Shown in pieces: positions 1,598 through 22,100 of a stretch of DNA of 34,391 nucleotides. A program made the position numbers and the translations under genes. Every line of letters starts with the position of its first letter. Position 1 is the first letter of the stretch. The stretch is from NCBI GenBank assembly GCA_018524725.1, contig JAEUWP010000142.1:1-34391 (forward strand). Direction: 5' to 3'. The stretch comes from Podaxis mareebaensis. Lineage: Eukaryota > Basidiomycota > Agaricomycetes > Agaricales > Agaricaceae. The notes beneath the pieces were generated by a model. The model had not been told where the DNA came from and ran no database searches. It saw only the letters and a program-made list of their open reading frames with translations.

Positions 1598-1810
1598 TCA
1601 AGTACGGGAGATTCGACAACAACGCCAACAATCTTCACCCACGAGTTTGACCGGCTCGTAATTGGGGTCCCGGTCACTGCAAAGGGTGGGAGGTTCCTGG
1701 GTGTAAAAACAGGCATTTGTGCAGCCTGGTTTTGGTGATAGGGGTTGTGCGTTGGATACGGTGAATAAGACCGTAAGAGTACAAAGTGCGCCGACGCATA
1801 AAGGTTTCAT
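1598..1810 (-). CDS. Secreted six-cysteine (CWxCC) protein, single module, 70 aa
   Basis: The ATG at 1808-1810 is followed by a signal peptide of about 21 residues (MKPLCVGALCTLTVLFTVSNA). The mature part holds one cysteine module, C-x3-C-x9-C-x15-C-W-x-C-C (CTNAC, TLC, GEDCWRCC). The order of cysteines and the GE.CW.CC ending match the repeated module of the genes at 5683 and 15350, so I regard it as a diverged single-module relative. A probable 55-nt intron lies in the 5'UTR at 1824-1878 (GTAAGT donor, CACTAAC branch site, GCCAG acceptor). A TATA box is at about 1929-1938. The product is expected to be extracellular and disulfide-bonded. Its function is unknown, and I know of no named family for it. 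Confidence 0.65.
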   Translation of the reverse strand: MKPLCVGALCTLTVLFTVSNAQPLSPKPGCTNACFYTQEPPTLCSDRDPNYEPVKLVGEDCWRCCRISRT

Positions 1811-1928
1811 GAGCGATTAGGCTCTGGCATTTGGTGTGTTAGTGCTCGCCATATGATACTAGCGGTTTGGACACTTACTACGGATCGTTCTGTCGATCTG
1901 GTTGAGAAACGAGGCAACACAGAGGGGG

Positions 1929-1938
1929 ATTTATATAT
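1929..1938 (-). promoter_or_regulatory. TATA box of the 1598-1810 gene
   Basis: The minus strand reads GGATATATAAATCC. It is placed about 50 nt upstream of the leader-intron donor of the 1598-1810 gene. Confidence 0.55.
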
Positions 1939-3780
1939 CCTGTGAGGGCCTTATTCTCTTGGCAATGTTGATCTCTTCGCCACTACAAGGCGTTCCTTCA
2001 CCGTTGCAATTCAAGCATTGTTCCCCCATGACCACCACTCTGTCAATGTCATAAACCTCGGGCATTCAGGATCTGTTAGAACCTCTGTTTCTCTGTTTTG
2101 AGGGATGGGTGGAATGTCCCGAGGTTCGCCGTCCTTCTGATCCAAGCGTTGGCTAGGAACTCATTTGAAGTGAATACTGGGAAATCTGCGCGAGCCGATA
2201 GCCATCAATTCGATGGAGACATTGCAATGATGTTGTTTGCCGTCGCTCGAGTTGGACACTAATTTCAAAATCAAAGGGGCTGTCGTTATTTATAGGACAG
2301 CTCCGAGGGGCATCTTCTCCGACTCGTGCCGGCGACAGGTCCCCCAACGCGATAGCGCTCAAAGAGGGTAGAGGTTAGACCGGCGCATGCTAGCAGTTTG
2401 GCAGGTTTTCCGACGGCCACGAATCTCCGCGTCTGTCTGATTGACAGATCGAACCTCATACAGGGACGAAGGTTATAAGGTGGAAAAAATGGCGGGATTT
2501 CTCACGTATAGGTAGTAGTGTAGCAACTTGGGTGGGGAGTTGAACAGTTACAGCTGTCCTTTGGTGGGCGGATCCAGAATATGGGTTCCTTCACGCCTTC
2601 ACCGGCCTCTTGACCGGAATCATTCCGACCTCACATATTGATGGTTTCTTCTCCCCACCAGCAACTCAGCTGACATAGATGAGGGACAAGTTGTGGAAGA
2701 AGTACGGCCTTTGACAACGATCAATACAAACAAGAGGAATGATGTGAGCCCCTCATTTCACCTGGACGATGGGCCGAGAACGTTGAAAACAGTAGCTTTG
2801 TGTAGGCCATCTTGTGATGTTCACCATTTCACCATTAGTACACTGGCGGGTAAGACGGAGTCTGGAGATGTTCCGTTATGGTGAATGTGTAATCCTGGAA
2901 TTGTCTATGATTCCCAACGAGTTACTTAAACCCCGCCGTATGTCCTCTGAGACGAGTATATACAGATCTCATGACCGTAAAGTGGCCATCATAGAATCCA
3001 GCCATGTTAACAGAGAGGAACCATTGACTTTGAAAATAGAAATGCAGAGCTTAAGGAAGTACGTTAGGGTGTCCTGTGTTCGAACTTGGTCGGACCGATA
3101 GCATGGCTGTCGTAAGCATGTTTTGTGTGAGCGCTGATTACTGACATAGGTTCAACTGATGCCCTTGTTGCTGCTGTCTCTGCTTTTTCTGTATATACCC
3201 CAGTAAAAGGTATACCTATAAGGGCAACGCTGGATCGGAGAATAGATATGCTTCAGTGCCATCATAAATATAGCTCCAACCGTGAGTCATTGGAAGCGAC
3301 TGATTTGGTCGTCATTTACTACTTGAGGCCAAGTCGGGACTTGCAAGGGATAAAGCCATGTCCTTGTGTCGTTCGTCGCACCCCTTTATGCTACGCGTGT
3401 GGAGAAGGAGTAATGGAGGTTCCATTCCGCTACTCAAGTGGAGAAGGAGGCAACGACGACCACGAGGTAACCTCCGTTAAGTCTTAGAGCTTTCCGCTTT
3501 GGGGCTAGTGATGGACATCTTTCCTGCTGAATGTATACTGGGGCCTGTAAATCTGCGTGCGTTCCCCGTCTTTAAGCTAAGTTTAGCTCTTTGTTTCATT
3601 TTTTCTTGACCAGCGCCCTGCTTATTCGTAGTAACCACGGTTCAAAGTATGTCTTGTTGAAAGCCACGTACGCCTCACCGTGACGGCATTGCTGAAATGA
3701 CCCTTTGGCGAAACGGTTTAATCGTGCAGAGCAATTTAGAACATTGGAAAGGAAACATGCAACAACCCAGATCTCCCACG
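1939..3780. other. Long intergenic stretch without a recognised gene
   Basis: ORFs of 60-95 codons occur on both strands, but none shows a signal peptide, a conserved motif or consistent splice sites. The plus ORF 3248-3487 contains a short repeated motif (GTGGAGAAGGAG at about 3400 and 3439) but nothing else. The last part, about 3735-3780, is the 3' flank of the duplicated secreted-repeat unit. Confidence 0.4.
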
Positions 3781-4244
3781 CTACGTATCCACAACTTCTA
3801 AACATCTTGTAACGGGCTGGCAACATCCCCAGCAGCCTTCACTTCCAGTTGGTGCCTCTCCGACAGGACACTCCGGCTTCTCTGGCAGGCAAACAGCAGC
3901 ACAAACGCGTGGGCTGCCCTCACCAGACTCGGAGGCAACGGCTTTGGCATCCGGGGCTTTGATGGGTTGACGACATCCCCAGCATCCCTCACCGCCAGTC
4001 GGTGTTTCACTGTAGGGACAGACTGGTTTCTCGGGGCGGCACTCAGCCGCGCGTGGGTTCGACGTTGGGACGGGCTTGCAACAGCCCCGACAACCTTTGG
4101 AGCCGGTAGGTGCTTCGCCTGGAGGACATTCGGTTTGACTTCGCGGCACACGGCGGTATGGCAGACGTCAGGTGATCCGGGGTTTGGAAGGGCCCCGACA
4201 CCGATGGCGGCTATGAGGGCGGCGATGATGAATGAAATCTTCAT
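3781..4244 (-). pseudogene. Decayed three-module secreted CWGCC-repeat gene (frameshifted)
   Basis: An intact signal peptide (MKISFIIAALIAAIGVGA) starts at 4244. The first module breaks at about 4131-4133, where one base is missing from a run that has one extra G in the paralogues at 5683 and 15350. The frame needed after that point is the one ending at 3781. Three module remnants are visible: CPPGEAPTGSKGCRGCC, then CPYSETPTGGEGCWGCR, then CPVGEAPTGSEGCWGCC. Beyond the frameshift, module 1 has CWGCC changed to CRGCC. Module 2 has lost its first cysteine and ends CWGCR. The acceptor of the leader intron (donor at 4305) is also altered: the AG used in the paralogue reads GG at 4247-4248. The promoter looks intact, with a TATA box at 4361-4370. 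Several independent lesions point to real loss of function rather than one sequencing error, although the frameshift alone could be an error. Confidence 0.75.
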
Positions 4245-4360
4245 ATCCGGAATAGTTCCGAAGAGGGTGAGCCTAATTCTCGAGCTCTGAAGATGCTCGA
4301 CTAACCTGGAAGTAGTAGTGCAATTATGGCTCTGATTACAGCTCTCTGAGGGGGACTCAC

Positions 4361-4370
4361 TTTTATAACC
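4361..4370 (-). promoter_or_regulatory. TATA box of the 3781-4244 pseudogene
   Basis: The minus strand reads GGTTATAAAAGTGAGTC. The same block occurs at the 5683 gene (GGTTATAAAAAGGAGTC), and a variant (TATTAAAGTGAGTC) at the 15350 gene, each 110-125 nt before the start codon. Confidence 0.65.
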
Positions 4371-5682
4371 CACTGTAGCTGAATCCACGTACCGTATTAG
4401 CGTTTATTTGCAGGGGGTTCTCCCGCCACTCGTGGCAGGATTTGGAAGATTAACGACACTGAGGATATCCATACTTCCCTTGGGATCTCCGGTTCTAGCC
4501 GGATCAAGCCAAAATCACCCAATAAATGCGCCTTGTTCTTACAGAAGGATGTTCTCTCATGGTTGCGTTTAGTGTGCCTTCAAATGTATAATACTCGCAT
4601 GATGCTTCCAGCCTAGCAGCCGATGAGCTGCCACAGCGCTCTCCAGAAGTGTTCATTGAGTCAATATTATGAAAAGGAGCCAGGCCGCAAATGCAGCAAT
4701 TGCATACGGTGAGCTCCATCAGCATCGTTGGAAGCGCCTAGAGGCAAACCCTCCACAACCTCGGCGGTGGCACAGTAAACCGACCTGCGGCGTAAACACC
4801 AGTTTACGGCAGTCAAAAATGCCTGGAAACTCGACAGAGAATTCCAGCCTTTCAGGGAACGAATTTGGTGCAGTATTTGGATCATGTAAAATGAGGTGTG
4901 TGTTGTCTTGTTTAACGAAGCGCTACATAACGAAAGTCCAGCTGCAGGGGTTCCATTGTTGTTCCATTCCGATGAGTCTAGCAATGATGCTATAAATAAG
5001 TCGTGATCATGAAGTTGACCCTTAAGAAACCTTGCGGGCCTCAGGGCGTTCCCTGATGTTGGGGGTATATTCGGGGTGATTGTGATATCAACCGATGGGC
5101 CTCATACTTCCGTTTTATCCAAGAGAAGCTATACCGAGCGGGCCTTGACGGAGTGTCATCGCCATTTGAGATACTACTGCACCAGTTGATGAAAGCTCCC
5201 CATTACTGTAGGGTGCTTAGTATCTAGTTGACTCTTGGCACTAGCTTCCTTGTTGAAAAAGAGCGGATAAGCGTCTGACTCGAACTGTAGAAATTGCTTT
5301 AAACTGCAGACCAACAAAATCTGGGTTCCTAGAAATAAAGTAACAGTCTTATACATCATTCGCATTTCTGAGATTTACCCTGGGGTTCAATTCTGTCTCT
5401 TGGGTGTGAAAGACGGCATTGGCAGCTGAGAGATGACCTTGGTCGCCACCCTCAAGTTCCCTGCCTTCGCTTCCACTCTGGAGGTTGGGAGGAGCGTATC
5501 TTTCTGATTATGAGTCGAGTTGTGAGTGCCCACATGGTGGGAAAAGGAAGCATGTCAGACTCGGTTTTGTGGATAAACAAAGTCGGCTATTAGAATTAAC
5601 ATGTCCGAACAAACGTAAAACACTGAAGAGGAATCAAATTAACAACCCAAGCTTCCTACAATATGTACTCGTCCCGGGGTAT

Positions 5683-6249
5683 CTAGGCATTTTCAACGGG
5701 CTGGCAACATCCCCAGCATCCTTCACTTCCGGTTGGAGCCTCTCCGGCGGGACACTTCGGCTTCTCTGTCTGGCAAACAGCAATGCAAATGCGTGGGTCG
5801 TCCCCAGCAACATCCTTAGCAGTCAAGGTGTCAACAGGTTGGCAGCATCCCCAGCATCCTTCACTTCCGGTTGGAGCCTCTCCGGCGGGACACTTCGGCT
5901 TCTCTGTCTGGCAAACAGTAGCGCAGGGGCGTGGGCCGTCCTGGGTGACTTCCTTAGTAGTCAAGGTGGTAACAGGTTGACAGCAGCCCCAGCATCCCTC
6001 ACTGCCGCTCGGTGCTTGGCCAGGGGGACAAACTGGTTTAACAGGACGGCAGACAGCCGTGCAAAAGACTGGCTCGGTAACGGGTTGGCAGCAGCCCCAG
6101 CAACCTTCGGAGCCGGTAGGCGCCTCACCCGGAGGGCATTCGGGTTTGACTTCGCGGCAGACCGCGGTACAGATATTAGTTTGGGGGTTTGGAATGGCGC
6201 TGACACCGATGGCAGCGACGAGGATGGTTGCGATGAATGAAGTCTTCAT
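5683..6249 (-). CDS. Secreted protein with four tandem CWGCC six-cysteine modules, 188 aa
   Basis: A signal peptide (MKTSFIATILVAAIGVSA) begins at the ATG at 6247-6249. It is followed by four modules of the form C-x3-C-x5-CP-x-G-x-APTGSEGCWGCCQPV. Modules 1 and 2 are separated by short spacers. Modules 2/3 and 3/4 are separated by Thr/Asp-rich spacers of about 15 residues (TTLTTKEVTQDG and DTLTAKDVAGDD). There are 24 cysteines in total, six per module. No dibasic Kex2-type site separates the modules, so it looks like a multi-domain disulfide-rich protein rather than a cleaved polyprotein. A 60-nt leader intron (6252-6311: GTTCGT donor, TTCCAG acceptor) ends two bases before the ATG, and a TATA box is at 6365-6373. 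This is the intact tandem paralogue of the 3781 pseudogene. Its function is unknown. An extracellular structural, binding or defence role is possible but is inference. Confidence 0.85.
   Translation of the reverse strand: MKTSFIATILVAAIGVSAIPNPQTNICTAVCREVKPECPPGEAPTGSEGCWGCCQPVTEPVFCTAVCRPVKPVCPPGQAPSGSEGCWGCCQPVTTLTTKEVTQDGPRPCATVCQTEKPKCPAGEAPTGSEGCWGCCQPVDTLTAKDVAGDDPRICIAVCQTEKPKCPAGEAPTGSEGCWGCCQPVENA
5708..5780 (-). repeat. 73-bp internal repeat, module 4 copy
   Basis: This segment is identical at all 73 bases to 5846-5918 (138-bp period). It encodes most of module 4 of the 5683-6249 protein. Modules 1 and 2 of the same gene are much more diverged. Confidence 0.9.
5846..5918 (-). repeat. 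73-bp internal repeat, module 3 copy
   Basis: This is the partner of 5708-5780, identical over 73 bases by direct comparison. It encodes most of module 3. Confidence 0.9.
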
Positions 6250-6364
6250 GTCTGGAACAGTTTTGGACAAGATGAGTCTAGCTCTCGACTTTGGAGTGAT
6301 GTTCAACGAACCTGGAAGTAGTAGTGTAACGGTGGTTCTGAGGTAACTCTCTGCGGAAGACTCC

Positions 6365-6373
6365 TTTTTATAA
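6365..6373 (-). promoter_or_regulatory. TATA box of the 5683-6249 gene
   Basis: The minus strand reads TTATAAAAA inside the block GGTTATAAAAAGGAGTC, which is shared with the 3781 locus. Confidence 0.65.
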
Positions 6374-7260
6374 CCCGCCGCAACCTATTTCGCTTGGCGC
6401 ACTGCCGTTTGCTGTGTGGGTGTTCCCTCCGCTATTCGGGGCAGGATTTGGAAGGATACTACCGGCCTGAGAGGACATTCAGAGTTCTATTCTAGCCGGA
6501 TCAGGCCAAGAAATCTAACATTAGGTCAAGCCAAGATCATTGAATAGTTCGTTCTCGACGGAGGGGTACCCTGACACATTTGCGCTTAATCCCGCACAAG
6601 GTTTTCGGTATAGCGGCCAACGGATTAATTCAAGGACCGCCACGAATACCCATTGAAACGATCGTAAGAGAAGCCCCAAACTGTAAATTGAGCTCACCGT
6701 CCTCATTGCAAGTCTTAGTGGTAAATCCTGCACCGCTTGAGGCGGTGGCACAATGAACCGTCCTGTGGGGTAAGCATCGCTTTACGGCAGTCACAGAACG
6801 GCTGGGGATCCGGTGGAGAACCTCAGCCGTTCAGGGGACGCACTTGACGTAGTGTGTTGGGTCATGGGTTATGGTCTGGATTCGGGGAGAAAGACCGCAC
6901 AAAGGGAAGATTAACCACTTAATAGGTTCCGAACTGACGGATCTAGTAACGGTTGGGTACCATGCACAAAGATCATAATCATCGCGTTGACCTAGAGTCT
7001 TTTGTCGACCTCCAGGCCCCATTTGATGACATCCTAACATCGTCGCAGAGCAGCAGCTCGCTTTCACGCATTCTTCGCAATGCAAGGGGAACAGTACTGG
7101 ACAGGCCTCGAGAAGTAGAGTATCCAAGATTCCAGTCAAGGAATCATTGCCGATCGAATGCCTGTCGCACTAATTGATCTATGCGCTCTGGTATCATAAG
7201 TCGCTTAGTTTCTACAGAGTTCCTGGCGCCAGCTCCCCTGTTGAGCCGGGTTTGATATAT

Positions 7261-7909
7261 GTCCGACAACAGGTTCGTCTATCTGATAGAACCGGCCTCA
7301 GTACTAAGAAGCAAACAGAACAGTTGTTGAGCAAAGACCACGAGGGGCGGCATACAGGATACAGATATACGGAAAATAGTGGGGCGTAATAGGAGTGCAA
7401 TGGTGCGAGTGGAACGAATGAAAACAGGGCACAACGGAAACAAGAAAGCCGGATTCCTCAATCGGCAACGAGTCCGCCGTACCGCTTACCCTACGAGACC
7501 TTCTAAACATATGTGTTTCACCGTCTCCTTCCTACATGCACCCATCTTTTCGCGCAAGGGAAGAATGTACTCCAACAAGATCCGTATCTGTCTCCTACAT
7601 TCCCCGCCCAGTATTTGATTGCTCCGCGGTGATATACAACTCGTCCACGACTTCCTTCGACATCTTGTTCGTTGCCTTTCCTCGATACCTTCGAAGCAGA
7701 TGAACCTAGGCGCAGGTGCAAACGCCAAAACCGTGAATATCAAAGGGTCTCGAAGAGGTAGAGGCGACAAGGATTGAAAAGGCAGGATTAGTATGATCAT
7801 CGTGCGGCCGAGGAAGTATGGAAGTGGTGTGAGTGTACCCCATGGAATTGGGGATATCGTATGTCACTAATCCATTTTCCAATTTTCCGGACGAGGCGGA
7901 GGAGGTAAA
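7261..7909. other. Unassigned; possibly 3' exons of the minus-strand gene at 7910-8657
   Basis: On the minus strand, the stretch read from 7707 down to the stop at 7518 is protein-like (motifs HRGAIKYWAGNVGDRYG and AKRWVHVGRRR) and follows a CCTAG acceptor. Another open stretch lies at about 7860-7700. Either could be 3' exons of the neighbouring minus-strand gene, but no intron chain joining them is compelling. Confidence 0.25.
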
Positions 7910-8657
7910 TTAGTCCACGAGCGCACTCCGTTGGGCATTTGCGGGCTTCTTCTTCATTTCTATCTGCCTCGTAAACTCCTGTAATTTCGGGTATCGAGTA
8001 GGTTTGCCGCATTTGCAAGGCTGCCGCTACATTTCAGAGCTCGGGCGATGATTGCACCGGGTGGTGTGACTACCGCTGAACCAGCACCGCCACTGATGGT
8101 CTTCCGACCGCTCTCGACGTCGACCAAGCATTGTTGGCATCCTTCTGGATTATGTTTGATGGAACATTGTGTGTTGCGGAGCATGCCGAGAGATGGGACG
8201 TGGGTGTACGTGATAGAAGACCAATTGTTGGATGACATGTGTCGTTTGGGGATCTCTATGTGTTGGCGGAGGCGTGAGGGTCTAACAATGATGGAAGCAA
8301 GGGAGGATGAGGCAATTCTACGGTCCGTGAGTATGGGCGTTGTGCGGCTTTGGGAAGAGGACCGAAGGGGTTTTGGAGAGGAGAGGAGATAGCGTCCGTT
8401 GGAGAAGGGGCAGTGAATAGGGGTTGACAGATTGTGGTAGGGATATTTGTGACACTGTCATAGGCGCCTGAGAGAGCCACTTCCTCGCAACTACGCGGGT
8501 TCCAGTACCGCTCCGTGTCAATGTTCCTATCATCGTTCTGGAATTCCTCATAGACCGCCATATCTTCGCTTGATTGGTCCGCAGAAAGCCTCGCGACAGC
8601 GATGTATAATGCGCAAATTTTCTTGCCGTTCTCCAGCTTGACTAAGCGCCCGTGATG
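7910..8657 (-). CDS. Probable multi-exon gene, uncharacterised, structure unresolved
   Basis: The best-supported exon is about 8456-8641 (or to 8657). It follows a TTAG or ATAG acceptor and reads KLENGKKICALYIAVARL ... EEFQNDDRNIDTERYWN, with the composition and codon pattern of real coding sequence. Downstream, an open frame at about 8245-8085 (HNPEGCQQCLVDVESGRK) joins cleanly across a 47-nt GTAGTC...TGTAG intron to RQPCKCGKPTRYPKLQEF, with a stop at 7910-7912. Joining the first exon to these needs either a long intron or an extra exon in 8245-8455, where two frames are open. Upstream, a stretch at about 8850-8660 (SNKGDDITAEEFPAKQEKGY) may be a further exon, but no normal-length intron links it. 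No domain is recognised. The CxC and CxxC pairs could hint at metal binding. Confidence 0.35.
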
Positions 8658-8911
8658 CTATTGGTTGAGTTCCACTTTCCTGTTCATAGCCTTTTTCTTG
8701 TTTAGCGGGGAATTCCTCTGCTGTTATATCATCGCCCTTGTTGGATTCGAGAGTGATCGGTGTTGCGGAGGAATGGGAAGCCAGAGGGAGAAAAAAGGTA
8801 TTGAAGCTTGTCGCATGCTCGAGCACGAGGATACTGAGGATACCTTTCGGCATCCGCGTGGTCTTGCTCCTCCAAATTTTTTGTCTTTGGGCGGAGGGCG
8901 GGCCGGAACAA

Positions 8912-9934
8912 GTATGTGTGTGTTGGATATTGCAGTTCGGGTATTGTACAACCAGATGAAAGCCCTACGTACGTGTGGGATTATGGGCACGAAGTCGAGT
9001 GAGGGCCACAGGGGGGAGACGTACCGAGAAAACAAAATTTTTCCCATTTCAGAAATCCCGGATTCCAGATCACCCTGTTACACATTTCCTAGGTCCTCAT
9101 TCCAGCATTTTTCAACGTTCATGGACGGCGGGGTGGACGACGAATGCAGAGACGAGTGCAAATTGTGAATTGATCCTTCTGACTTTCATTATTGGTGGTG
9201 GCCGGTAGGTAGGAGAAGGGAGCAAGTCGTTGAGAAAGTTTGGGTTGAAAAGCTCTGGCATAGGAAGAATGAATTTTGGCTGATCCGGACGAGGACTTCC
9301 ATGAATGTGTACCTTGCCCCTCCGATGGTTTGTCTGACCAGAAAAAGGTAAGAGGACGCGTCTAAACGCGTCCGTGGCCGGCGTCCTCGACATTGGATCA
9401 AATGAGTCACGGGAATGTTGGATCAACAACCGTGAATCAGTGATACGCAATTTCAATTACTGTAATTGATTTTGTGGCTGGGCACAACAAACTTCTGGTC
9501 GTATCGCGTATGAACAAGTCATAAAATCCGTGCATATTTCCAGTGTCAATGTATACAAATGTCGCATATCTACTTGTGCGAAGCATGGCTCTTAGCGCAA
9601 CCCTCTAACAGGCGTTAAGATGTATATGTCATAAGTTTCAGTGGTAAATATGCTAAACGCGGAAGAGTAAACAAGCGACTAGTACTTAGTGGCAAATGAG
9701 TCATGTATCTATCCAACACGGAGCCGGAAGGTGGTTCCGTGGCATGGCCCTTCACCATCGTCGAGAGCGTGGCGGGCAGTGGGGACTCCGAACCTGAGGG
9801 GAGGGGCATTTAAAGGCTTAGGACCAAGTCTCTAGTTTCACTAATACGGTTGAGTATTATTATTGCTCTATGGAGAAACGAAGAGCGCTATAAATTGAGA
9901 CGAGACGGAGTCAAACCAGGCCCTCACTAAAACA
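8912..9934. other. Intergenic, possible upstream exons only
   Basis: A minus-strand open stretch at about 9394-9190 (MSRTPATDAFRRV ... LFNPNFLNDLLPSPTYRPPP) is moderately protein-like and could be a 5' exon of the gene at 7910-8657. A GTACGT...CGTAG intron-like segment follows at about 9024-8966. Nothing else is supportable. 9457-9934 holds no recognisable gene. Confidence 0.25.
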
Positions 9935-10150
9935 TCAATAACTCCGAAGAGACTTGCAACACGTCCAACACAGCTTATGCTGCTCAAGACGCCAGCCATC
10001 CGGACAATCAAGCGGTTCCAACTCCCAGCATCCATGACATTCAGCATTGCCCGAACGGAACTTTGGTTTCTTTGAGTTTGCGGTGACCGTCGTTGCAGAC
10101 AACAATAAAAGAGTCGTAAGGATGAGGCTGAGGCTGAGGAAGGATTTCAT
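9935..10150 (-). CDS. Secreted six-cysteine (CWxCC) protein, single module, 71 aa
   Basis: The ATG at 10148-10150 starts a strong signal peptide (MKSFLSLSLILTTLLLLS...TVTA). One module follows: C-x2-C-x6-CPDG-x8-CWTCC (ECHGCW, DCPDG, LCWTCC). The CPDG...CW.CC order makes it a diverged relative of the CPxGEAPTGxEGCWGCC modules, like the 1598-1810 protein. The mature part is basic at both ends (SKKPKFR and CCKSLRSY). Upstream in the leader a GTAAGT donor lies at about 10290-10295, and GCCGCAG precedes the ATG by eight bases, so a leader intron like that of its relatives is likely. It lies about 0.9 kb upstream of, and divergent from, the first SDR gene. Its function is unknown. Confidence 0.65.
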   Translation of the reverse strand: MKSFLSLSLILTTLLLLSATTVTANSKKPKFRSGNAECHGCWELEPLDCPDGWRLEQHKLCWTCCKSLRSY

Positions 10151-10938
10151 GACGATGGTCTGCGGCAGAACAAAACGCAGCGGGTGAGGGTCAAACGATG
10201 TGGATAGGGATAAAGGCGAACTGGAAAATAGGAGCTAAAACCTGGTGAGGAGAGAAGCCTTAGGTGAGCGTTCGAGAGGTCAATAGAGACTTACGGATTG
10301 TCCTGCAATAAACGTTGTAGCTTCGACGTTCAAAAAAAAAGCTTGGTGAGTTGGTGGTGAAGACGCCGGGGTTGGGCTTGCAGCGCTGCTGGCGGATGGC
10401 GGTAAGCGAACAAGTGAGGGATTTAATAGTCTATGCCAAGAATAGAACGCATTATTTTCAAAACCCCATCACTGCATCAAAAATCAATATTTCAATTGCC
10501 TGATTATTACAATGAAGAAACAATGAATGGCGCCGTTCCTGTATATCATAGCAAGACTTCCGTCTATATTTTTCAGAGGTTGCTTTTAAGCCCGCGCGGA
10601 GCTGTTCCAGCACCATCTGGAAAAAAACCACGCCCTTTGTGTCACAGGGAATCAGAACAGGATCGAATAACGTAAATTACCTTCAGCACTCTGATCACCT
10701 GGACTGCCTTAGGTCATGTAACAGCGAAGGACTATTCAGAGGAACGTTGGAGCGAAAGATAACGCGCTGATGCTAAGAAGAACGTTGAGGAGTAGACCTC
10801 AAAACGAGGTCATTTGACCTATTATCATTGGCAACGAGAAGAATTCTTCCCACCAAAACATAAGTAGGGACCAAACATCTCAGTCATCCTGAGTTCTATC
10901 GGCCATGAGGCCTTCGACGGCATGTCCACTAGAATAAG
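10151..10938. other. Divergent intergenic region between secreted gene and SDR gene
   Basis: It contains the 5' leader of the 9935 gene (to about 10330) and a possible TATTAAAT promoter element on the minus strand near 10421-10428. The rest is the upstream region of the SDR gene. No further gene is seen. Confidence 0.4.
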
Positions 10939-10946
10939 TATATATA
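10939..10946 (+). promoter_or_regulatory. TATA box of SDR gene 1
   Basis: TATATATA followed by GG, 115 nt upstream of the ATG at 11054. This is a usual distance for a TATA-containing fungal promoter with a leader of about 80 nt. Confidence 0.55.
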
Positions 10947-11053
10947 GGCAGGGAGCCATAGAAGACTGTCACCGAGTACATTGATAGCTCACTCGTACTC
11001 CCCATCTCTCGGTCCTTGCAAGCACCTACTGTCGCTAGTCTGTCTAGTTGCAA

Positions 11054-12139
11054 ATGTCCGCCCCGGTACAATCCCCACTCATCGCAAGGGATGCACTCGC
11101 CACTAGAGTCATCCCCGAGATGGTGTTCTCGCAAGCGGACAATCCGTTGACAGCCCCTATCCCTACACCTGAGGGTCTAACTCCCACTGAGAGGGCCATC
11201 CGTCGGTTCTCAATCAGCGGGAATGCCATCGGTGAGTTCCCTAACCACTATCCTGGTGTTCGTATGATAGATCCTGGTCATAGTGACCGGAGGTGCTGGC
11301 CATCTGGGCTTAACAATCATCCAAGGGCTTCTCGAACATGGAGCAACTGGGATAGCGATCTTTGACCTCTTGTCAACGATCACATCCGCACAATCCGAGA
11401 TTCAAAAGCTTGAGAGCGAGTTTCCGCAAGCGAAGATCATCACCTTGGAGGTCGATGTCACCGACGCGGGTGCACTGAGCAAGGCGGTCCAGGAAGTAAA
11501 ATCGAATTTGGGATCGATCGACCTATTACTTTGTTTTGCTGGAGTCCTCGCTAACAGGCATTCAGTGGACACCAGCCCTGAAGAATGGAGGAAGGTCTTG
11601 GAAGTCAATACGACAGGAAGTTGGCTTTGCGCCCAAGCAGTGTCCAAGTTCGCAAACGCTTTGAATCCCTTGTTCAGGAAGCTGATGAAATCAATAGGCA
11701 CATGATAGAACAGGGCCAGGGTGGAGCAATTCTCTTCGTAGCGTCAATCGCGGCGCACAACGTTTTGTATGGGACACCTCTGGCCCCCTATAGCGTTTCG
11801 AAAGCCGGGGTTTTACACTTGACGAGGTGCCTTGCCGCGGAGTGGGCGCGCTACGGTATACGAGTGAACAGTATAAGCCCAGGGTATATGAAAACCGTCA
11901 TGAATGGTGGGAATGCTTTGGAGCCTACTAGGAAGCTCTGCGCTGAGCGGAATCCGATGGGGAGGATGGGGGAACGAGAGGAGCTAGTGGGAGCAGTCAT
12001 ATTCTTGTGTAGTCGATTTGCTGCAAGGTACATTACAGGTGAAGACATTCTGGTCGACGGTGAGTTTGTATCGTATTTTAGCCGACAAGGGTCACTGCTC
12101 ACCGGGACGTTTGTCATAGGCGGGGGAAGCATTTTCTGA
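11054..12139 (+). CDS. Short-chain dehydrogenase/reductase, polyol/sugar type (copy 1), 307 aa
   Basis: Exons: 11054-11231, 11284-11647, 11698-12059 and 12120-12139 (924 nt). All introns are GT-AG, 50-60 nt. After a 59-residue N-terminal extension the Rossmann motif TGGAGHLG lies at residues 61-68. The catalytic tetrad of classical SDRs is visible as N168, S197, Y212 and K216 (YSVSK). The usual NNAG motif is replaced by CFAG. The C-terminus is VDGGGSIF, reached only by splicing the last 20-nt exon. The fold and the RVNSISPGY segment resemble fungal NAD(P)-dependent sorbose reductase and D-arabinitol/mannitol dehydrogenase-like SDRs, so a cytosolic polyol or ketose redox role is likely. The exact substrate cannot be told. 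The paralogue at 16710 has the same exon lengths. Intron 3 (60 nt) has no in-frame stop, so retention would give a longer C-terminus. Confidence 0.9.
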
Positions 12140-12357
12140 GCTATTACTTGAGAATATTTGGGACCGAGTACCTCACCGAACGTTGAGAGGAGGAAGGAAA
12201 TGCACAATACAATCACCCAGTATTTGAGGATGCAGCATGATACGTATCTAGTCTAAGACATGTACTCGAACGGTTGCAGTAGCCTAAACAGCGCAAATGA
12301 TTCCAAACAAGACCTATCGCTGGAGCGTGACAGTAGTACGCGTGACAGGCGCGTTTA

Positions 12358-13253
12358 ATGAGCGTTCCCCCTCTTCTCATCTGTGAGGCCCTGGGCTTCT
12401 CTCCACAACTCCTCCTCGACGATATCATCAACGTTGCCAACCAGGCTGTACAAGATGGTGTAAATGGAATGGAAGAATTCCTCCAGAAATGGACAGACCA
12501 ACGCGCTGAGAAACTTGGTGGAGACTGGGACGGCACTCAGGAAGTCGAACAGGGACTCGTCGCCTTCCAAACCCTGCTCGAGTACCACACAGACATCGCA
12601 TTCGACTTCTTTGAGGCTTGGTCACTGCGGAATATCTTTGCGATTCCACCTGACCTACCCATCGTTCTCCCTCATCAAGAAAATCTCGATCTCACGGCAA
12701 CACCAGAACGCGAGCAGGAATTGATGGACGAAGTTGAGCAACTCCGAAAAAAGATCGATGCGGTATGCACCAAACCGCGTTCTCGTGTCCACACTGCTCT
12801 GACCTATGCTAGCAACGAAAACTTAAACGCGTTCTGAACCGTGCTCTTCGCGTATCTGCTCTCCAACGGCGTCGATCCGAACAACGACTCGCCCAGCTTT
12901 CTGTCCTCGAACATCCCTCCCTCGATACCCTCACTACTCTGCCTAATAACCTAGAGGCCATGTACAATGCATGCTCATCATTAGAGCCCCTCGATGCTGC
13001 AACTGTCTCGACACTTACCCAAGTTGAGCTTTCGGAGCCTGGTAAGCGCCCATGGGAATCAACAAAGAGTGGTTACCTCAAGTGGGCTACCGAGAGGCTA
13101 CTTGCTAAGGCGAAAGAACAAGAGGGTAGGAGCGGTGAGGTCACAAATTTGGTGGATCGCATGGACCAGGTTGGACGAGCAGAGAGGCTGAGAAAGGCTA
13201 TTGAAGTCACGGAGAACGCACGGGAGAGCCTGGGAGCTCTGGATGAAGAATGA
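12358..13253 (+). CDS. MIS12: Kinetochore protein Mis12/Mtw1-type, 281 aa
   Basis: Exons: 12358-12762 and 12813-13253. The 50-nt GT-AG intron is phase 0, with a CTGAC branch site and a GCTAG acceptor. The N-terminal segment EALGFSPQLLLDDIINVANQ followed by GMEEFLQKW matches the Mis12 family signature, in which a G-F-x-P-Q stretch opens a helical domain. It continues with GLVAFQTLLE...DFFEAW. A coiled-coil-prone region spans about residues 120-165 (REQELMDEVEQLRKKIDA, then QRKLKRVLNRALR). The C-terminal third is also helical. Mis12/Mtw1 is a subunit of the MIND (Mis12) complex, which links CENP-C and the inner kinetochore to Ndc80 and Spc105/KNL1 in the nucleus. The start is set by the conserved distance from ATG to the GF-P motif. 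It lies only 218 nt downstream of SDR gene 1 on the same strand. Confidence 0.85.
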
Positions 13254-13490
13254 ATGCGAGCACCCCTTGAGCTATTTAATATCTGTATATATGTATCAAC
13301 CAGTAACTAACTCAGGATGACTACAACAGTGTAAACTATCGAACGTCGTTAAATTCCTTCGTGTTTCTTCTACGACAACATTCGGCTTGTCGAGTTTTTT
13401 TTTCCTAGCCCTAGAAAACTAGCTACTTGGCTGTTGTCGGGAACGCGTTGGGGCTACAGGCACGATCCGAAGTATTACACTTGACATACA

Positions 13491-13680
13491 GGGGAAGCAT
13501 CCTCTGAGCTACTTAATAATTGCACGCTCATAGGAGGAAAAACGCACAATGCGATCGCCCGGTGCTCGGGGATCTTGCATGACACACATCTAGAGGCATA
13601 TACCCTAATAGTGGCATGGTATATGCAGATGCCCTAGAACAGCAGCACTAGTCGATGTGCGGCGTCCAATGCGTTTAATG
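13491..13680 (+). repeat. Relic copy of the SDR 3' end / Mis12 5' junction
   Basis: This aligns with 12124-12360. It starts with GGGGAAGCAT, the last SDR exon including a conserved TGA, and continues through the spacer (GGAGGAAR..., CACAAT, a diverged GGATnnnGCATGA block, CATCTAG). It ends in GCGTTTAATG, the Mis12 start context with its ATG kept. Similarity stops within about 25 bases after that ATG. It is too short to encode anything. The flanking stretch 13254-13490 shows no gene. Confidence 0.7.
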
Positions 13681-15231
13681 TGGCGGCCTCCCTTCAAGCT
13701 CGTAAGTTCTATTCTCTTCCTGAGTCCGGATCAATTCAATGGTCTGCGACCCGTCTATAGAGCCATTGAGGGACCAGTCAGGTTGAGTCCTTTTTAGAAT
13801 TTCGTTATGCAACGTTTGAACTTTCGTACGACAAGGCGACTTGAGAGTACTCGCACTATGTGTTCGTCCGAGTAATGCTCTAATCTGATGAACGGTGAAG
13901 CTACTTGCCGAATCTCGTAGGCGTTTTTGGTAACCGTAAGATGGTATTTACGTCATAGGTCAGGTAATGTCGCCACTGCGGCGCTCTCAGTAGCGATGGC
14001 AAGCTCACTGTATGCAATGGGGATGGAGAAGAGGAAGTCACCGACGGCGTGCGAGAGGATCGGAGGTCGTTGGTGGTGTGGCGCATGAGGTCCTAGTAGA
14101 AGACTGGTTACGAATTCGATAGCCGAAGTTGCCGGCTATAGTGGTTTTTGCAGGGGAGTGGTATGCAGGCGTCAGCTGGGATGTGCTCGCGCCTTCTAAA
14201 TCGTGAGAGTTGCATAGACGGTAAGCAATCGACCCGAAGGATTTTCGCCACAAGCTCCTCGGAATAGAATAAGAAATCAACGGCACAATTGTTTGTTATA
14301 TTTAATTCACACCGCCCTCTACTGCCGAATGATGGATCACGTCTGTGGGTAGACGATATTTCTGTGAATCGGAGTACTAAACATTTTTAAAATCCTTCTG
14401 TCAACGAGTGTAAATCTTGGAATAAATGTCCATATACTCAACATTTGGCCTACTAATGAGCCACCACAACAGTTATAAAAGGGCAGATTTATAGGTGTAA
14501 CCGTGAGCTTAATGTAGCCTATGAAGAATCCTGTGTAGTTGATTGCGATGTCCAACAGGTCATGAAATATGACCTACCTGCTATCTTTATGGGTAGTTAA
14601 TCATTTAGAGTCAGTCCGCAAGCACCTCTTCTTTTGTGGCTTAGGACTCACAGAGGAACCTTCTTTTCCATTTCAACAGCGGTTCCGAAAGTCATTGTTG
14701 ACATGAAGTATGCTCTTCGATCTATCAGCTGCACCATCCGCAGCGAAATGGGACGTGCTATACTTAATAAAGATTCGGACGTTCAGTGACCAAACGCCCG
14801 GAAGCCATTATCTAGTGTTCCCCACAGAACGTTTCGTGGTCTCGGCTATTCGCCCCGTCGCCAATGACCTTTCTTTTCCTGTTCCAAAGGGCCTCCGTGA
14901 CGAGAATCCCTGACGTCGCGGAGCTCACTGTTTGCAGTGGTTGCATTTATGGTTTGGCTTCCTTTCGTACGATTGGTTTCGCGAAAGTTCACTGCAGCTG
15001 CTATGCTGTAGTTCCATGCAGACACGTTACCAATCGAAGGCGAGTTAAGTAAAGAGATAATTCATTGGAGGATTTCGGCTTATCCAGCGTCATATTTTTC
15101 GCCCTGATCCAGTTAGACAGGAAATATGGAAGCTCTCATCGTGTCGGTACCTTTCCAATCCTGTATCGCATGAAAGGGAGAATTGTAGCCCAGTGAACGG
15201 CACTAGTTACGTGAATTCGGCTCTGGTCGAG
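13681..15231. other. Intergenic; contains the inverted upstream region of the secreted-repeat unit
   Basis: No gene is recognised. About 14920-14962 matches the reverse complement of 4676-4717 (GGAGCTCACnGT, then TTGCATTT, then GGCTnCCTTT). It sits 430 nt upstream of the 15350 ATG, against 473 nt for the 3781 locus. The promoter region of this gene therefore belongs to the same duplicated unit, in inverted orientation. ORFs such as 14337-14555 (minus) and 14710-14913 (plus) lack supporting features. Confidence 0.45.
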
Positions 15232-15239
15232 TATTAAAG
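15232..15239 (+). promoter_or_regulatory. TATA-like box of the 15350 gene
   Basis: TATTAAAG followed by TGAGTC, aligned with the TATAAAA blocks of the 3781 and 5683 loci. It lies 118 nt upstream of the ATG. Confidence 0.6.
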
Positions 15240-15349
15240 TGAGTCTCGTCCAGAGACTCTCACTCAGAGCCACAGTCGCCCTATCCCCAGGTTAGTCGAA
15301 CATTGCCTAACCTCGAGAGCTAGACTCACCATGAACTACTTCCGCAGAT

Positions 15350-15895
15350 ATGAAGACTTCCTTCGTCGCCGCCATCCTCGTCGCCATTATCGGTGTCAAC
15401 GGTCTCCCAAGCCCGCAGTCGTCCGATAACTGTATCGCACTCTGCCAGGAAGTCAAACCGGAATGCCCTCCAGGTGAAGCCCCTACCGGTTCCGAAGGCT
15501 GCTGGGGCTGCTGCGAGCCTGTCAAGCCGCCGACTATATGCCTGCCTGTATGCCGCCCCGAGAAGCCAGAGTGTCCTTACGGTGAAGCGCCAACCGGCGG
15601 TGAGGGATGCTGGGGTTGCTGCGAGCCCGTCGCGCCGCCGACTATATGCACGCTCGAGTGCCGCCCAGAGAAGCCAGAGTGTCCCTACGGTGAGGCGCCA
15701 ACCGGCGGTGAGGGATGCTGGGGCTGCTGCCAGCCCGTCAAAACACCGATCCCTGTCGCCACCACGCCCAACGAGGGCGGCCCAGATGCTTGTTTGGCTG
15801 TTTGTCAGAAGGAAAAGCCAGAGTGTCCCGCTGGAGAAGCGCCAACTGGAGGAGAGGGATGTTGGGGATGTTGCCAGCCAGTTAAGAGCTCTTAG
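15350..15895 (+). CDS. Secreted protein with four tandem CWGCC six-cysteine modules, 181 aa (inverted paralogue)
   Basis: A signal peptide of about 18 residues (MKTSFVAAILVAIIGVNG) is followed by four modules of the form C-x3-C-x5-CP-x-GEAPTGxEGCWGCC, ending in E/Q-P-V. There are 24 module cysteines, all retained. Modules 1-3 are joined by short KPPT/APPT linkers and repeat every 36 residues. A spacer of about 16 residues (TPIPVATTPNEGG) precedes module 4. The start is confirmed by a 57-nt leader intron (15291-15347: GTTAGT donor, CCGCAG acceptor) that ends two bases before the ATG and removes an out-of-frame upstream ATG at 15331. It is the plus-strand paralogue of the 5683 and 3781 loci, 0.8 kb upstream of SDR gene 2. 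It is likely extracellular and disulfide-rich. Its function is unknown, and no established family is recognised. Confidence 0.85.
   Translation: MKTSFVAAILVAIIGVNGLPSPQSSDNCIALCQEVKPECPPGEAPTGSEGCWGCCEPVKPPTICLPVCRPEKPECPYGEAPTGGEGCWGCCEPVAPPTICTLECRPEKPECPYGEAPTGGEGCWGCCQPVKTPIPVATTPNEGGPDACLAVCQKEKPECPAGEAPTGGEGCWGCCQPVKSS
15527..15735 (+). repeat. Two 108-bp tandem module repeats
   Basis: Modules 2 and 3 of the 15350 protein are encoded by near-identical 108-bp units. The landmark GCCGACTATATG ends at 15540 and again at 15648, and GCGCCAACCGGCGGTGAGG recurs at the same spacing. They differ at scattered bases. Confidence 0.8.
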
Positions 15896-16709
15896 GTACT
15901 CAGGGATGAATGAGTGGTGTAGGAAATTGATGTTGTTCGCTTGATTTCTCGTCAATGCTATGTGCCGGTCCAAATGCGATAGTTCTGAGAGCCGACGTGG
16001 GAGCGGAATGGAACACCCCAACCTTTGTTCCGTTGTTTCCAGAAGGAAAGTCCGGAGGAGGACGAGGAGGACGAGGAATAGTACAAGCACTTGGACCATT
16101 TTATAAGTCTCGTCGTAACTTCAGATAGGCAAACGGCGACCAGGGCTAGCTCCTATGCTAATCTCTAGCGAGACCACAACACATCTGCCCCCCAGGTCAG
16201 AGTTGCCCTTAGTGTCGCTCTTGGCAATGCGGGTATGTTTGCAAGTTATAACTGGAAAAAAACGCAGAATTAGATGATAAGCACGAGCAGTTCCGATTTC
16301 CCCAAAGCCCCATACCGATCAAGCATGGTACATAATTTGATCCTAATAATAGCTCCTCGAAGCTATTTTGGCCTCAGGTATCTCCGCATGTCATGGTTCG
16401 GAGTCATCGACACGAAAATAGGTGGAGATGATCGTACTACTATTCAGAGCAACACTAATTTTTTTGGTTGCTAATCCTTATTAGTTAAAGCTATGAAGCG
16501 CGTGGATCCTTACACGCATAAAGATGTACGGTTATCCCAGGATTCGGAGAACATGGATTTCAGTCAGGTGTCTGATGTCTATTTCAGTACCCCAAGGAAA
16601 AATGCCAGCGAACACATCGATAACTCACGTGTACATCTAACAATGACTCCTCGATTTCAATGGATATCTTCCGCACATTTCTAAGTTCCTCGTCAGCCTC
16701 CTCCGTACA
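15896..16709. other. Intergenic between secreted-repeat gene and SDR gene 2
   Basis: The first 100 bases are the 3' flank of the 15350 gene, alignable in reverse complement to the 3' flank of 5683 (around 5640-5690). Small ORFs at 16274-16474 and 16493-16684 have no supporting features. No TATA box was identified for SDR gene 2. Confidence 0.4.
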
Positions 16710-17795
16710 ATGTCTGCACCTGCACAGTCCCCCCTTGTCCCTAGAGATGCGCTAGCCAAACGTGTAATCCCCGAGATGGTGTTATCACAAGCGAGCAATC
16801 CATTGACGGCCCCGATCCCGACGCCTGAAGGGCTGACTCCTGCTGAAAGGGCGATACGTCGCTTTTCAGTTAGCGGGAACGCAATAGGTGGGTTCTTCAG
16901 TCACAGTTTTCGTCTTATCATCACACATCTGCATCACAGTGACCGGAGGTGCTGGGCATCTGGGATTAGCAGCCATTCAGGGACTTCTCGAACATGGAGC
17001 GACAGGAATAGCGATTTTTGATCTTTTGACGACACTCGTGTCTGCGCAATCTGAGATCCAGAAGCTTCAGAAGGAGTTCCCTCAGGCAAAGATTCTTACT
17101 TTGGAGGTGGATGTCACGGATGAAAATATGGTAGACAAGGCGGTCCAAGAGGTGAAGTCGACATTGGGATCGATCGATATCTTACTTTGCTTTGCTGGAG
17201 TCGTCGCCAACACGCACGCGATAGACGTCCCGCCGGCAGAATGGAGGAGGGTAATGGAGATTAACACGACGGGGAGTTGGCTTTGTGCCCAAGCAGTGTC
17301 CAAGTTCGTATTGCACCAGAACCTCATGGTTTCGAAGCTGACGTGCGTTTCCAGACAGATGATAGCGCAGGGTCATGGTGGAAGTATCCTCTTTATAGCA
17401 TCGATCGCAGGGCATAGTGTCCTGTATCCGCAGCCTCAGGTGGCCTATAATGTGTCGAAAGCTGGGGTTTTACACTTGACAAGATGTCTTGCGGCAGAGT
17501 GGGCACGTTATGGTATCCGAGTAAACAGCATAAGCCCAGGGTACATGAACACCATCTTGAATACCGGAGATTCGCTAGCGCACGCAAGGAACATATGGGC
17601 TGACCGAAATCCGATGGGGAGGATGGGTGAACCAGATGAGCTAACGGGTGTGGTTATATTGTTGTGTAGCAGGTTTGCCGGGAGATATATCACGGGTGAG
17701 AATGTCACTGTCGATGGTGAGTTTACAGCATAGTTGGTAGACCAGGTGTTCGGCCCACTTACTGGAATGGTGTAGGTGGAGGAAATGTTTTCTAA
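16710..17795 (+). CDS. Short-chain dehydrogenase/reductase, polyol/sugar type (copy 2), 307 aa
   Basis: Exons: 16710-16887, 16940-17303, 17355-17716 and 17776-17795, giving 178, 364, 362 and 20 nt, the same lengths as copy 1. The 59-residue N-terminal extension, TGGAGHLG, catalytic Asn, Ser and YNVSK, and the C-terminal VDGGGNVF are all conserved. Intron 2 is 51 nt with no in-frame stop, so an unspliced reading stays open but would insert 17 residues after the active-site Asn region. Without the last splice the frame would end at 17733 in GEFTA. The GG-rich ending shared with copy 1 supports splicing to the final 20-nt exon. The enzyme class is certain and a sugar or polyol substrate is probable. 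The gene is 0.8 kb downstream of the secreted CWGCC gene, so a CWGCC gene precedes each SDR copy. Confidence 0.9.
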
Positions 17796-19147: not shown

Positions 19148-22100
19148 TTAATCGCTCTTTCGTTTCTTAAATTTTCCTCGGCTCTCACTAGGCAAAAATC
19201 AGCACACTGAGCCTAACCTGAAAATCAAATCAACGTACGCGAAACTTCTATCTTTTCGTTTCCGACTCTCTTTCTTGATGGTGTTACGCTGCAACTTGCG
19301 CTTCGCCGCTGCTTCGGGGTTTGTCGCCACCTGTAGTGTTCTTGCAACTTTACGAGTTCGCCGCAGCTCCAACGTCTTTTGCCGAATTTGGTTATATACA
19401 TTTGAGAACTTGGTCGTTCCGACTTTGGCTTGCACGAGGTCTTGTAGTTCAATAGCGGTCGTCTTCAACTCCTCTGCCCAGCACACGACTGATGAGCAAC
19501 AAGGAATATTTACGTTGAAAAGTAAACACATACCCATCTGTGGATCGCGAATAGTGTCATCTTCTGTTAACCGATATACAGGTGTAAGTATATGCACAAG
19601 GAACTGTTCTACACTCTCGGCGTCCATATGTGACGCCATGGCAGCAAACCAGCGCAATACGGCGAGAGGTTGGTGGTGCCAAGCCGACTGCCAAACAAAA
19701 ACTCAGAATTGGACGAAACAGCGAACTGGTGGAACTTACGGCACTCGTTGCCCGTCTCCGCCTGCCAATATGCGCAGACTTGATCTGGTACGAGAGCTTC
19801 GAGAACAACCACGGTAACGGATCTTTTCCCTTTGGGACGACATCTTCGCCTTCCTTCTCGGCATCCTGCTCTCCATCCTCGTCATCCAACAAATCATCCG
19901 CAACCTCACCGACACCGGCCTTCCCGTTGCCCGCGTTTGCCTTGGGAATGGCATAGAAACACTTGCCCGCAAAGAACAAGTTCTTAACAACCTGCATCCC
20001 AAGCGTCTCGTCTAGATTCGGGCTCTTGAGCTGTAGCGACAGCTTCTTCGCCACGTCTTGCATTCCGACCAGTGAAGCTGGGTGGTCATCTGGTAGATCG
20101 GTTCTAGGAGGTGCGATGGGTAGCGCGGTGAATAGGAGTCCGAGAAGCCGGCATGCGGCTGTGCGGACCCATGCGTGCGGGTATAGCAAGTGAGTGGTAA
20201 CCAGACTCCATGACACTTTGATATCGTCCATGCACAAATCGGGGAACACACGAAGTGCTTTGAAGAGCACGGACAATGAATGATAGGGTATCTTCCATTC
20301 CAGGTCAACTTCCATCCCGACATCCTCGCCTCCGTCCTCAGTATCCTGAGCAAGTGATTCAGAGCTCTTGACAAGCGCGGCACGTAGGTCTTCCATGATC
20401 ATTGGGATATACGACTGAACCTCCGTCTGCGCAGCATCAATAATGAACCCATAGATCTGTGACGAGACCCAGATCAATTGCGGTTGTGCCTCCTGCGTCG
20501 CCCACGTATGCAGATGCGAGAATACGAGCTTCTTCCTTTCATCATCCAGTCGCGTGTACAAGTTCTTGATCAGTTGCGCGGCCATCTCTCGACATTTTGC
20601 GGAATCGTCATTGGCAATAACCATAACCAACGCCACGAACAATAAATCTGCGTATTCCTGAACCAACGCGTCTTGGAACTTAGCGATGATTGCACTAAGG
20701 AGCTCCATCACCGACTTCCGACCGCTTTCGTATACGTAGGACAGGTTCTTCGCGAAGAACGCCATCTGATTCCGTAGGCGGCCTTTGCCTTGAGGGTAGT
20801 CGAGGAGGAACTGGAGGAGGACGCCCCGGCAGAGTTCTTGGACTTGGGGAGACTGGTTCGTCACCATGATTTCGGCGACCTTGTCCATGATGTCATAGAT
20901 TTCGGGAACAACGAACTTGCGAGCAACTATTGCGCGGAGCATAGTAAATACAGCCGCTTGTCGCTCGTGTTCTTCCAGATCCGGCGTCAAGAGCTCGAGA
21001 AGGAATATGAGATCTTTCTCCTTCACTTGAGCACCGGGGAAGTCACGTAGAATGGTAGCCAGAGATTTGAATGCGACTTGGACGATCTCGGATTCGGTGT
21101 TGCCAGTTTGGCGGATGATGTCGATCATCTGAGAGATAAAGACCGGCACCGCTTTGGGAAGATTCTTGAGTGGGCATTTCATGAGGCCAGCAGCGCATTT
21201 GAGGCCAAGCATGATGACAGGTGCACTGGTGGAATAGAGGGTATTGCCGATAACTACCACAATAGACTCCAAACGCTTGATTGTCTCGGCATCATGGAAG
21301 TCGAACCGGCTTCGACGAAGGGCTGTATTGAATAGATCTAAGCCAAAAGCAACGAATCTGTAAAAGCAGAGTGAGCCAGTACAGCATGTCAGACGTGAAG
21401 CTCATACCTGAAGGAATTGTTGGCGTAATGGTCCGTATCCGCAGCAACCTCTCTTTTCAACTGCACGATCGCATCCCCCTTAGGTGTTGGCTTCCTCTTC
21501 TGCGCCGTCTGCTTCAGGAATTTCGCATTTTGATTTATCAATGTATGGCACAACACAATCAGCTCCGTCGGAACCAAATGTTTGTTGCTGTTCAGCCCAG
21601 ACGCAATCCGCTTTAGCACCTCATCAACGAGTTGCATCACCTTGAGGGACTCTGTCTCCCGCATAATACCGCGAAGTGGTGCAAGGAGACTGCTGATCTT
21701 GTTGGGACTAATAGCTTTGGCGATGATGGCAAAAGAGTCGAGGCCTCTTGATGACGATCCCCGGACTTCACGCATCTTGGTCTTGAAGTCTTCCGAGAGG
21801 ACATCTTTCCCGGATTCGCCAAAGATAACTTCAGCAGAGACATGAGCCACGTCATTGACACAATCATCCAGAAGGTTGAATGTGTCTGCGTGTTCCTGTG
21901 AGGTGAGTTGGACGAGGATAGCGTGTGTGACGAATGCGAGGACGTGGAGTTGAGGACCTCGAGTAAGCGCACTCCGAAGTTCCTTGAATACCAAAGGGAG
22001 ATATTTAGGTCCAAGACTAATAGAAATGCGAACAAGGGCGTCCCGCGTGAGGTCCCGCGTCTCCTGCGACCGGCTCCGTAGAATCTGGCTGAGGACGGTC

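Follow-up and report, generated by a model that had tools for sequence, protein, structure and literature searches.

Secreted proteins built from a strictly spaced six-cysteine module in Podaxis mareebaensis, with relatives in mushrooms and Aspergillus

What are the small secreted proteins encoded side by side near one end of a contig of the agaric Podaxis mareebaensis? The window we analysed is the first 34,391 nucleotides (positions 1-34391) of contig JAEUWP010000142.1, here called C5, in an assembly of 36.95 Mb and 429 contigs (GCA_018524725.1). A reading made from the letters of this stretch, which we call the sequence-only reading, had picked out five loci encoding a module with six cysteines that ends in CWGCC: one module at 1598 and at 9935, three decayed ones at 3781, and four at 5683 and at 15350. 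All five were there, with those numbers of modules and with signal-peptide-like starts in the four-module genes. They belong to a real family without a model in the libraries searched (Pfam, NCBIfam and PDB). The sequence-only reading had proposed an undescribed family, and as far as libraries go that stands; it needs qualifying in that members already sit in databases, under the names 'hypothetical' or 'small cysteine-rich' protein.

The module and its relatives

The strictest feature of the family is one the sequence-only reading does not mention, namely the spacing of its cysteines. C-x3-C-x6-C-x11-C-x2-CC is exact in 78 of the 91 modules scored in 45 homologs from the first homology search (a set that includes P0002, the 42562 gene of the P. 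mareebaensis genome itself) and in 28 of 34 modules from 21 P. mareebaensis genes. All eight modules of the two intact four-module genes of the window follow it, as C-x3-C-x6-C-x11-CWxCC; the 1598 and 9935 genes depart from it. Even branches with little else in common keep to it, for example CLLICYPEKPDCRPGWFPSGGDGCWTCC. Among 94 modules preselected for exact spacing, in which the cysteines are invariant by that selection, Trp follows the fourth cysteine in 93, Pro stands two residues before the third in 91 and Gly occupies position 8 of loop 3 in 86. The core GEAPTGxEGCWGCC, described earlier as almost invariant, is present in seven of the eight modules of the 5683 and 15350 proteins, the exception being module 2 of 5683, GQAPSGSEGCWGCC. 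Chance does not produce this pattern, since a loose version of it matched 14 times in the window and not once in 200 first-order Markov simulations.

A fold prediction for a single module had been suggested as a check. AlphaFold made of it a two-strand hairpin with a mean predicted local distance difference test score (pLDDT) of 81, and in the 15350 protein it placed the same two strands in all four modules, with ten-residue block means of 78-94 in the cores. Each module is predicted to be a beta-hairpin carrying C4, the Trp, C5 and C6 on its second strand. Because cysteines on one strand cannot easily pair together, each of C4 to C6 would pair with one of C1 to C3.

The window holds only part of what the genome has. 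Searching the genome contigs with six proteins and one DNA pattern gave counts that are lower bounds: at least 23 open genes (seven on C5, six on C382, five on C202, two each on C104 and C7, and one on C68) and at least four interrupted copies (one on C5, one on C202 and two on C104, one of these weak at an expectation value, E, of 0.026). The stops in some interrupted copies could be introns instead. On C5 the cluster runs beyond the window, with three further genes at 42562-46325. Single-module precursors are compact, at 64-78 residues, and all 21 genes examined have 11-16 hydrophobic residues in the first 25, the start codon having been chosen by that very criterion. Gly/Thr-rich tails occur in four genes, three on C202 and one on C68; long Gly/Thr/Ser-rich tails after one module were seen at C68:38870-39280 (L057) and at C202:81647-85816. 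Support from paralogs or orthologs is present for the 15350, 5683 and 9935 genes. The 1598 gene is the weakest member and the one we are least sure of: the genome search found no paralog of it at E<=1, and one pairwise alignment, with a contig-7 member, gave 6e-4.

Who else has the module? Three homology searches gave 55 proteins, 27 of them with an organism name: 13 come from 13 Aspergillus species and 14 from nine species that we take to be Agaricales, the lineage having been looked up for Macrolepiota fuliginosa among these and for A. nidulans among the Aspergillus species. No order beyond Agaricales and Aspergillus appeared among the 27, in searches that rely on shared five-residue words and so do not show absence elsewhere. 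For the 9935 protein a relative in M. fuliginosa shows 63% identity, so its divergence has been kept in a second genus. Scanned with a pattern of the CWGCC branch, prokaryotes (one genome per species, 84,980 species) and viral contigs yielded no confirmed relative. One homolog, P0032, has a bacterial-looking N-terminus; no bacterial genome in the prokaryote scan confirmed a relative.

AN8544 of Aspergillus nidulans and its Aspergillus relatives, all hypothetical proteins, are family members; P0001 shows 47% identity across 95% of the query, and AN8544 has up to five modules. Judged by eye, some modules in the Aspergillus models are seemingly split by introns before GCWGCC or after CPxGE, whereas the modules of the window genes are uninterrupted. 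The public models P0001, P0004, P0042 and P0052 seem, again by eye, to miss such introns; in P0001, P0042 and P0052 what follows GE or E is consistent with a GT-type splice donor, and in P0042 these donor-like letters seem to be followed by a remnant of GCWGCC in another frame. The annotated form of AN8544 may include surplus residues. Closer to home, the 'small cysteine-rich protein' P0009 of Agaricus bisporus has the same modules, three of them against four in the window proteins, and is 49% identical over 142 residues.

How the same module came to be in mushrooms and moulds is a question its size makes hard. In the A. nidulans group of Aspergillus, modules have a mean identity of 0.72 to the P. 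mareebaensis CWGCC branch and 0.74 to each other, against 0.60 to those of other Agaricales, which average 0.55 among themselves; the homologs compared were collected with a CWGCC-branch query and are biased toward likeness to that branch. Several module types seem common to mushroom and Aspergillus, and 28 columns cannot settle their history. Horizontal transfer would be one candidate route. It is rather improbable, on our estimate, that all parts of the fullest version hold together: a disulfide mini-fold not characterised before, repeated to give multivalent binding outside the cell, and present in both mushrooms and Aspergillus because a multi-module gene was transferred horizontally.

Known frameworks and the question of inhibitors

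Searched for a match to a described domain family, Pfam, NCBIfam and PDB returned nothing significant and reproducible. Pfam listed no family for the two four-module proteins, the damaged open reading frame (ORF) or the two single-module proteins of the window, and its best E values were 0.15 among six homologs and 0.12 among 19 diverse members. NCBIfam gave stray matches only, at E 0.0023 in one of the 19 members and 0.17 in one. The best PDB matches, at E 0.82 and 0.9, were both to pantothenate kinase, and three profiles gave 1.1, 2.1 and nothing. A search of the open literature, with subscription papers outside it, found no description of the family.

The sequence-only reading had seen no match to hevein, knottin or hydrophobin, and Pfam agrees, listing none of them. 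These too are small secreted cysteine-rich proteins of similar size. Hydrophobins have eight cysteines and two CC pairs; the module has six and one pair. Hevein also has eight cysteines, and no chitin-binding family (hevein/CBM18) was listed for proteins or modules. A knottin does not have its cysteines in the order C-C-C-C-CC. The N-terminal domain of IGFBP, which carries a GCGCC motif (PF00219 in Pfam), was not listed at E<=10 for the window proteins and six homologs or at E<=1 for the modules and the 19 members.

One framework came close. When Pfam was run on 81 separate modules it made a single match, to PF02428 at E 0.044, and we followed it up because repeat 1 of tomato inhibitor II has nearly the same cysteine spacing. 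This is the potato type II proteinase inhibitor (PotII) family of plants (tomato 1OYV/1PJU, Nicotiana 1FYB), the closest framework known to us, and like the fungal proteins it comes in tandem repeats. Tomato repeat 1 reads C-x3-C-x7-CP-x11-C-x2-CC, where x11 counts the Pro after C3, and differs from the module by one residue in the second gap; the first six cysteines are in the same order, C1-x3-C2, C3-x11-C4 and C4-x2-C5C6 are identical, and Pro follows C3 in both. PotII has eight cysteines, however, with C7 and C8 after the CC pair, whereas the module has six and ends at CC and a short tail. Outside the cysteines the likeness of two repeats gave P values of 0.46 and 0.40 against 5000 shuffles each. 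The module profile listed no PotII chains in PDB at E<=10, hhalign gave a probability of 22% over 18 columns, and PF02428 appeared in no full protein. Since the likeness is no better than shuffles, no PotII structure was matched and C7 and C8 are absent, the module family is not a member of PotII.

Might the proteins nevertheless act as PotII does, inhibiting proteases through the C3-C4 loop as a reactive-site loop held on a disulfide scaffold? The cysteine order, the spacing, the tandem repeats and the one match in 81 would suit such inhibitors. The same failed comparisons count against them, and so does the position aligned with the PotII P1 residue, which is Gly in 86 of the 94 modules, an unlikely inhibitor P1. 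A PotII-like mode of action is possible but not supported, and we consider it distinctly unlikely.

The linkers speak to another idea, that these are precursors of small peptides, either ribosomally synthesised and post-translationally modified peptides (RiPPs) or products of Kex2 processing. Tandem near-identical cores are what such a precursor might have. Yet KR or RR occurs in just one of 52 scored family linkers, as EKRQ in the C104 gene, so the modules probably stay joined, and the cores resemble whole disulfide domains. We regard a peptide precursor as very unlikely. The sequence-only reading had noted an absence of dibasic sites, and for the linkers that was right; in the 9935 protein KK precedes the module. 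Metal binding in the manner of a metallothionein or a ferredoxin is brought to mind by the CxxCC clusters and by incomplete UniRef labels, '4Fe-4S ferredoxin-type', on P0006, P0012 and P0026. Secreted proteins pass through an oxidising pathway, though, and Pfam matched no ferredoxin or metallothionein, with P0006 and P0026 among those scanned; this seems to us the hardest idea to credit.

Selection and a putative function

Purifying selection acts on the CWGCC branch. Over 14 modules of the four CWGCC genes on C5 the ratio of nonsynonymous to synonymous proportions (pN/pS) is 0.22, or 0.31 without the cysteines, and the two four-module genes at full length give nonsynonymous and synonymous distances (dN and dS) of 0.23 and 1.32, a dN/dS of 0.17. 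Loop by loop, pN/pS in this branch is 0.66 for loop 1, 0.43 for loop 2 and 0.21 for x11, the C3-C4 loop. Such strong constraint on x11, above that on either other loop, is easier to reconcile with one shared ligand than with an arms race.

Our tentative proposal, to which we give a probability of roughly 0.36, is that the family comprises multivalent, disulfide-stapled binders of the fungal wall or matrix. In this proposal secreted proteins carry one to four mini-domains of about 28 residues (up to five in AN8544), C1-x3-C2-x6-C3-x11-C4-W-x-C5-C6. The conserved hairpin loop, PxGEAPTGxEG in the CWGCC branch, and the nearly invariant Trp would together make a surface that binds a common ligand outside the cell; the likeliest is a polymer from the wall or matrix that the fungus itself makes, or from the substrate it grows on. 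Avidity would rise where several modules are strung together by flexible linkers. Tails that follow the module in some relatives, Gly/Thr-rich or hydrophobic and resembling glycosylphosphatidylinositol (GPI) signals, might tether the protein (P0029-P0031, for instance, end in Ser/Thr-rich stretches and a hydrophobic tail), and the single-module branches may have diversified for other targets. The conserved C3-C4 loop, the near absence of dibasic sites in the linkers and the tethering tails favour a joined multivalent binder.

Several observations pull the other way. Constraint is weaker elsewhere in the family, with a pN/pS of 0.29 on C382, 0.40 on C202 and 0.64 on C104 (1.04 without cysteines). 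The three loops are alike on C382 (0.42, 0.42 and 0.48), and on C202 and C104 together loops 1 and 2 stand at 1.08 and 1.06, with loop 3 at 0.63; values near 1 could mean that selection is relaxed or, as in defence peptides, diversifying. Secreted peptides with a single module (C382, C7 and 9935) need no multivalency. AlphaFold's predicted template modelling (pTM) scores were low, 0.40 and 0.33, and neither a binding face nor disulfides can be seen in the models.

Those near-neutral loops lead to the thought that the proteins are secreted defence peptides, antimicrobial or aimed at animals that feed on the fungus. The many copies over six contigs, some of them interrupted, the compact single-module precursors and TATA-like boxes in six C5 leaders would all sit well with defence. 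Conservation of the longest loop in the multi-module branch, both within the genome and between mushroom and Aspergillus, would be unusual for arms-race peptides; the tandem modules are not separated by dibasic sites, and no solved or Pfam peptide resembles them. We hold defence to be somewhat unlikely.

Small, secreted, cysteine-rich and expanded proteins could also be effectors facing a host or substrate, or developmental signals, released at fruiting or colonisation. The named carriers are mostly saprotrophs, and we counted this against such a role, as we did the conservation, rather than diversity, of the CWGCC modules. AN8544 supplies the only expression clue: an array study lists it among the most down-regulated genes on suberin at days 2-4 and 4-6, the mid and last time points (PMC4117967). 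Regulation this strong would suit an effector or signal, whereas a fall in expression during growth on a plant polymer counts against one, and we judge an effector or signal quite unlikely. For the wall or matrix proposal we also noted that the same study reports loss of biofilm matrix and down-regulation of hydrophobin at the first suberin point, in passages that do not link AN8544 to either (PMC4117967).

The cluster, its neighbours and what the family offers

The loci of the window are collected in Table 1. The 3781 copy had been called decayed, and its details bear this out: two of its three modules are damaged, one reading CRGCC and the other lacking its first cysteine and ending in CWGCR, the signal-peptide part lies in another frame, and one TGA falls within the homology match that recovers the copy.

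Table 1. Family loci and probable leader introns in the window
Feature	Position	Strand	Basis or remark
Intact four-module secreted protein, 181 aa	15350..15895	+	ORF call; spacing 3-6-11-2-0 in 4/4 modules
Modules of the 15350 protein	15431-15514, 15539-15622, 15647-15730, 15791-15874	+	
Probable 5' leader intron, GTTAGT...CAG	15291..15347	+	Directly before ATG of the 15350 gene; leader alignment, five C5 genes
Intact four-module secreted protein, 188 aa	5683..6249	-	ORF call; spacing 3-6-11-2-0 in 4/4 modules
Modules of the 5683 protein	6088-6171, 5980-6063, 5842-5925, 5704-5787	-	Repeat registers also checked
Probable 5' leader intron, GTTCGT...CAG	6252..6311	-	Directly before ATG of the 5683 gene; leader alignment
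Decayed three-module copy	3781..4149	-	All six cysteines only in last module (3820-3903)
Signal-peptide part of decayed copy	4150..4244	-	Frame differs from 3781..4149 part
Single-module secreted protein, 71 aa	9935..10150	-	Spacing 2-7-11-2-0
Single-module secreted protein, 70 aa	1598..1810	-	Spacing 3-9-16-2-0; most divergent; membership least sure

Both intact four-module genes have a probable leader intron ending in CAG before the ATG. TATAAAA stands about 50 bases upstream of that of the 5683 gene, and by eye the TATA-like boxes of the six C5 leaders, the decayed copy's among them, lie about 110-130 bases before the ATG. In the leader alignment the decayed copy has GG before its ATG where the 5683 gene has the splice acceptor AG. 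The multi-module genes at 42562 and 44540 have, to the eye, leaders of much the same kind in which the acceptor is less canonical.

The module genes alternate with two copies of a short-chain dehydrogenase gene, at 11053-12139 and 16709-17733 on the plus strand, spaced 5656 bases apart and 74-80% identical in DNA over matched stretches (Pfam was run on the second copy only). The cluster adjoins a Mis12-like kinetochore gene (12358-12837, plus strand) and a UTP20-like gene (19557-24793, minus strand). At 303-509 on the minus strand lies a further small ORF that looks secreted; two cysteines follow its signal, its tail is rich in Pro and Thr, and it has neither the module nor a Pfam match.

What does the family offer? 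'Hypothetical' entries from mushrooms and Aspergillus now form a single defined family, for which there are a strict signature, a fold prediction and a count of members in one genome. As A. nidulans carries the homolog AN8544, what the family does can be studied by experiment in a tractable laboratory fungus. Protease inhibition by the module, if it occurs, would be a striking convergence on the cysteine skeleton of PotII; binding to a wall polymer, if it occurs, would make the module a new minimal repeat for binding carbohydrate or matrix.

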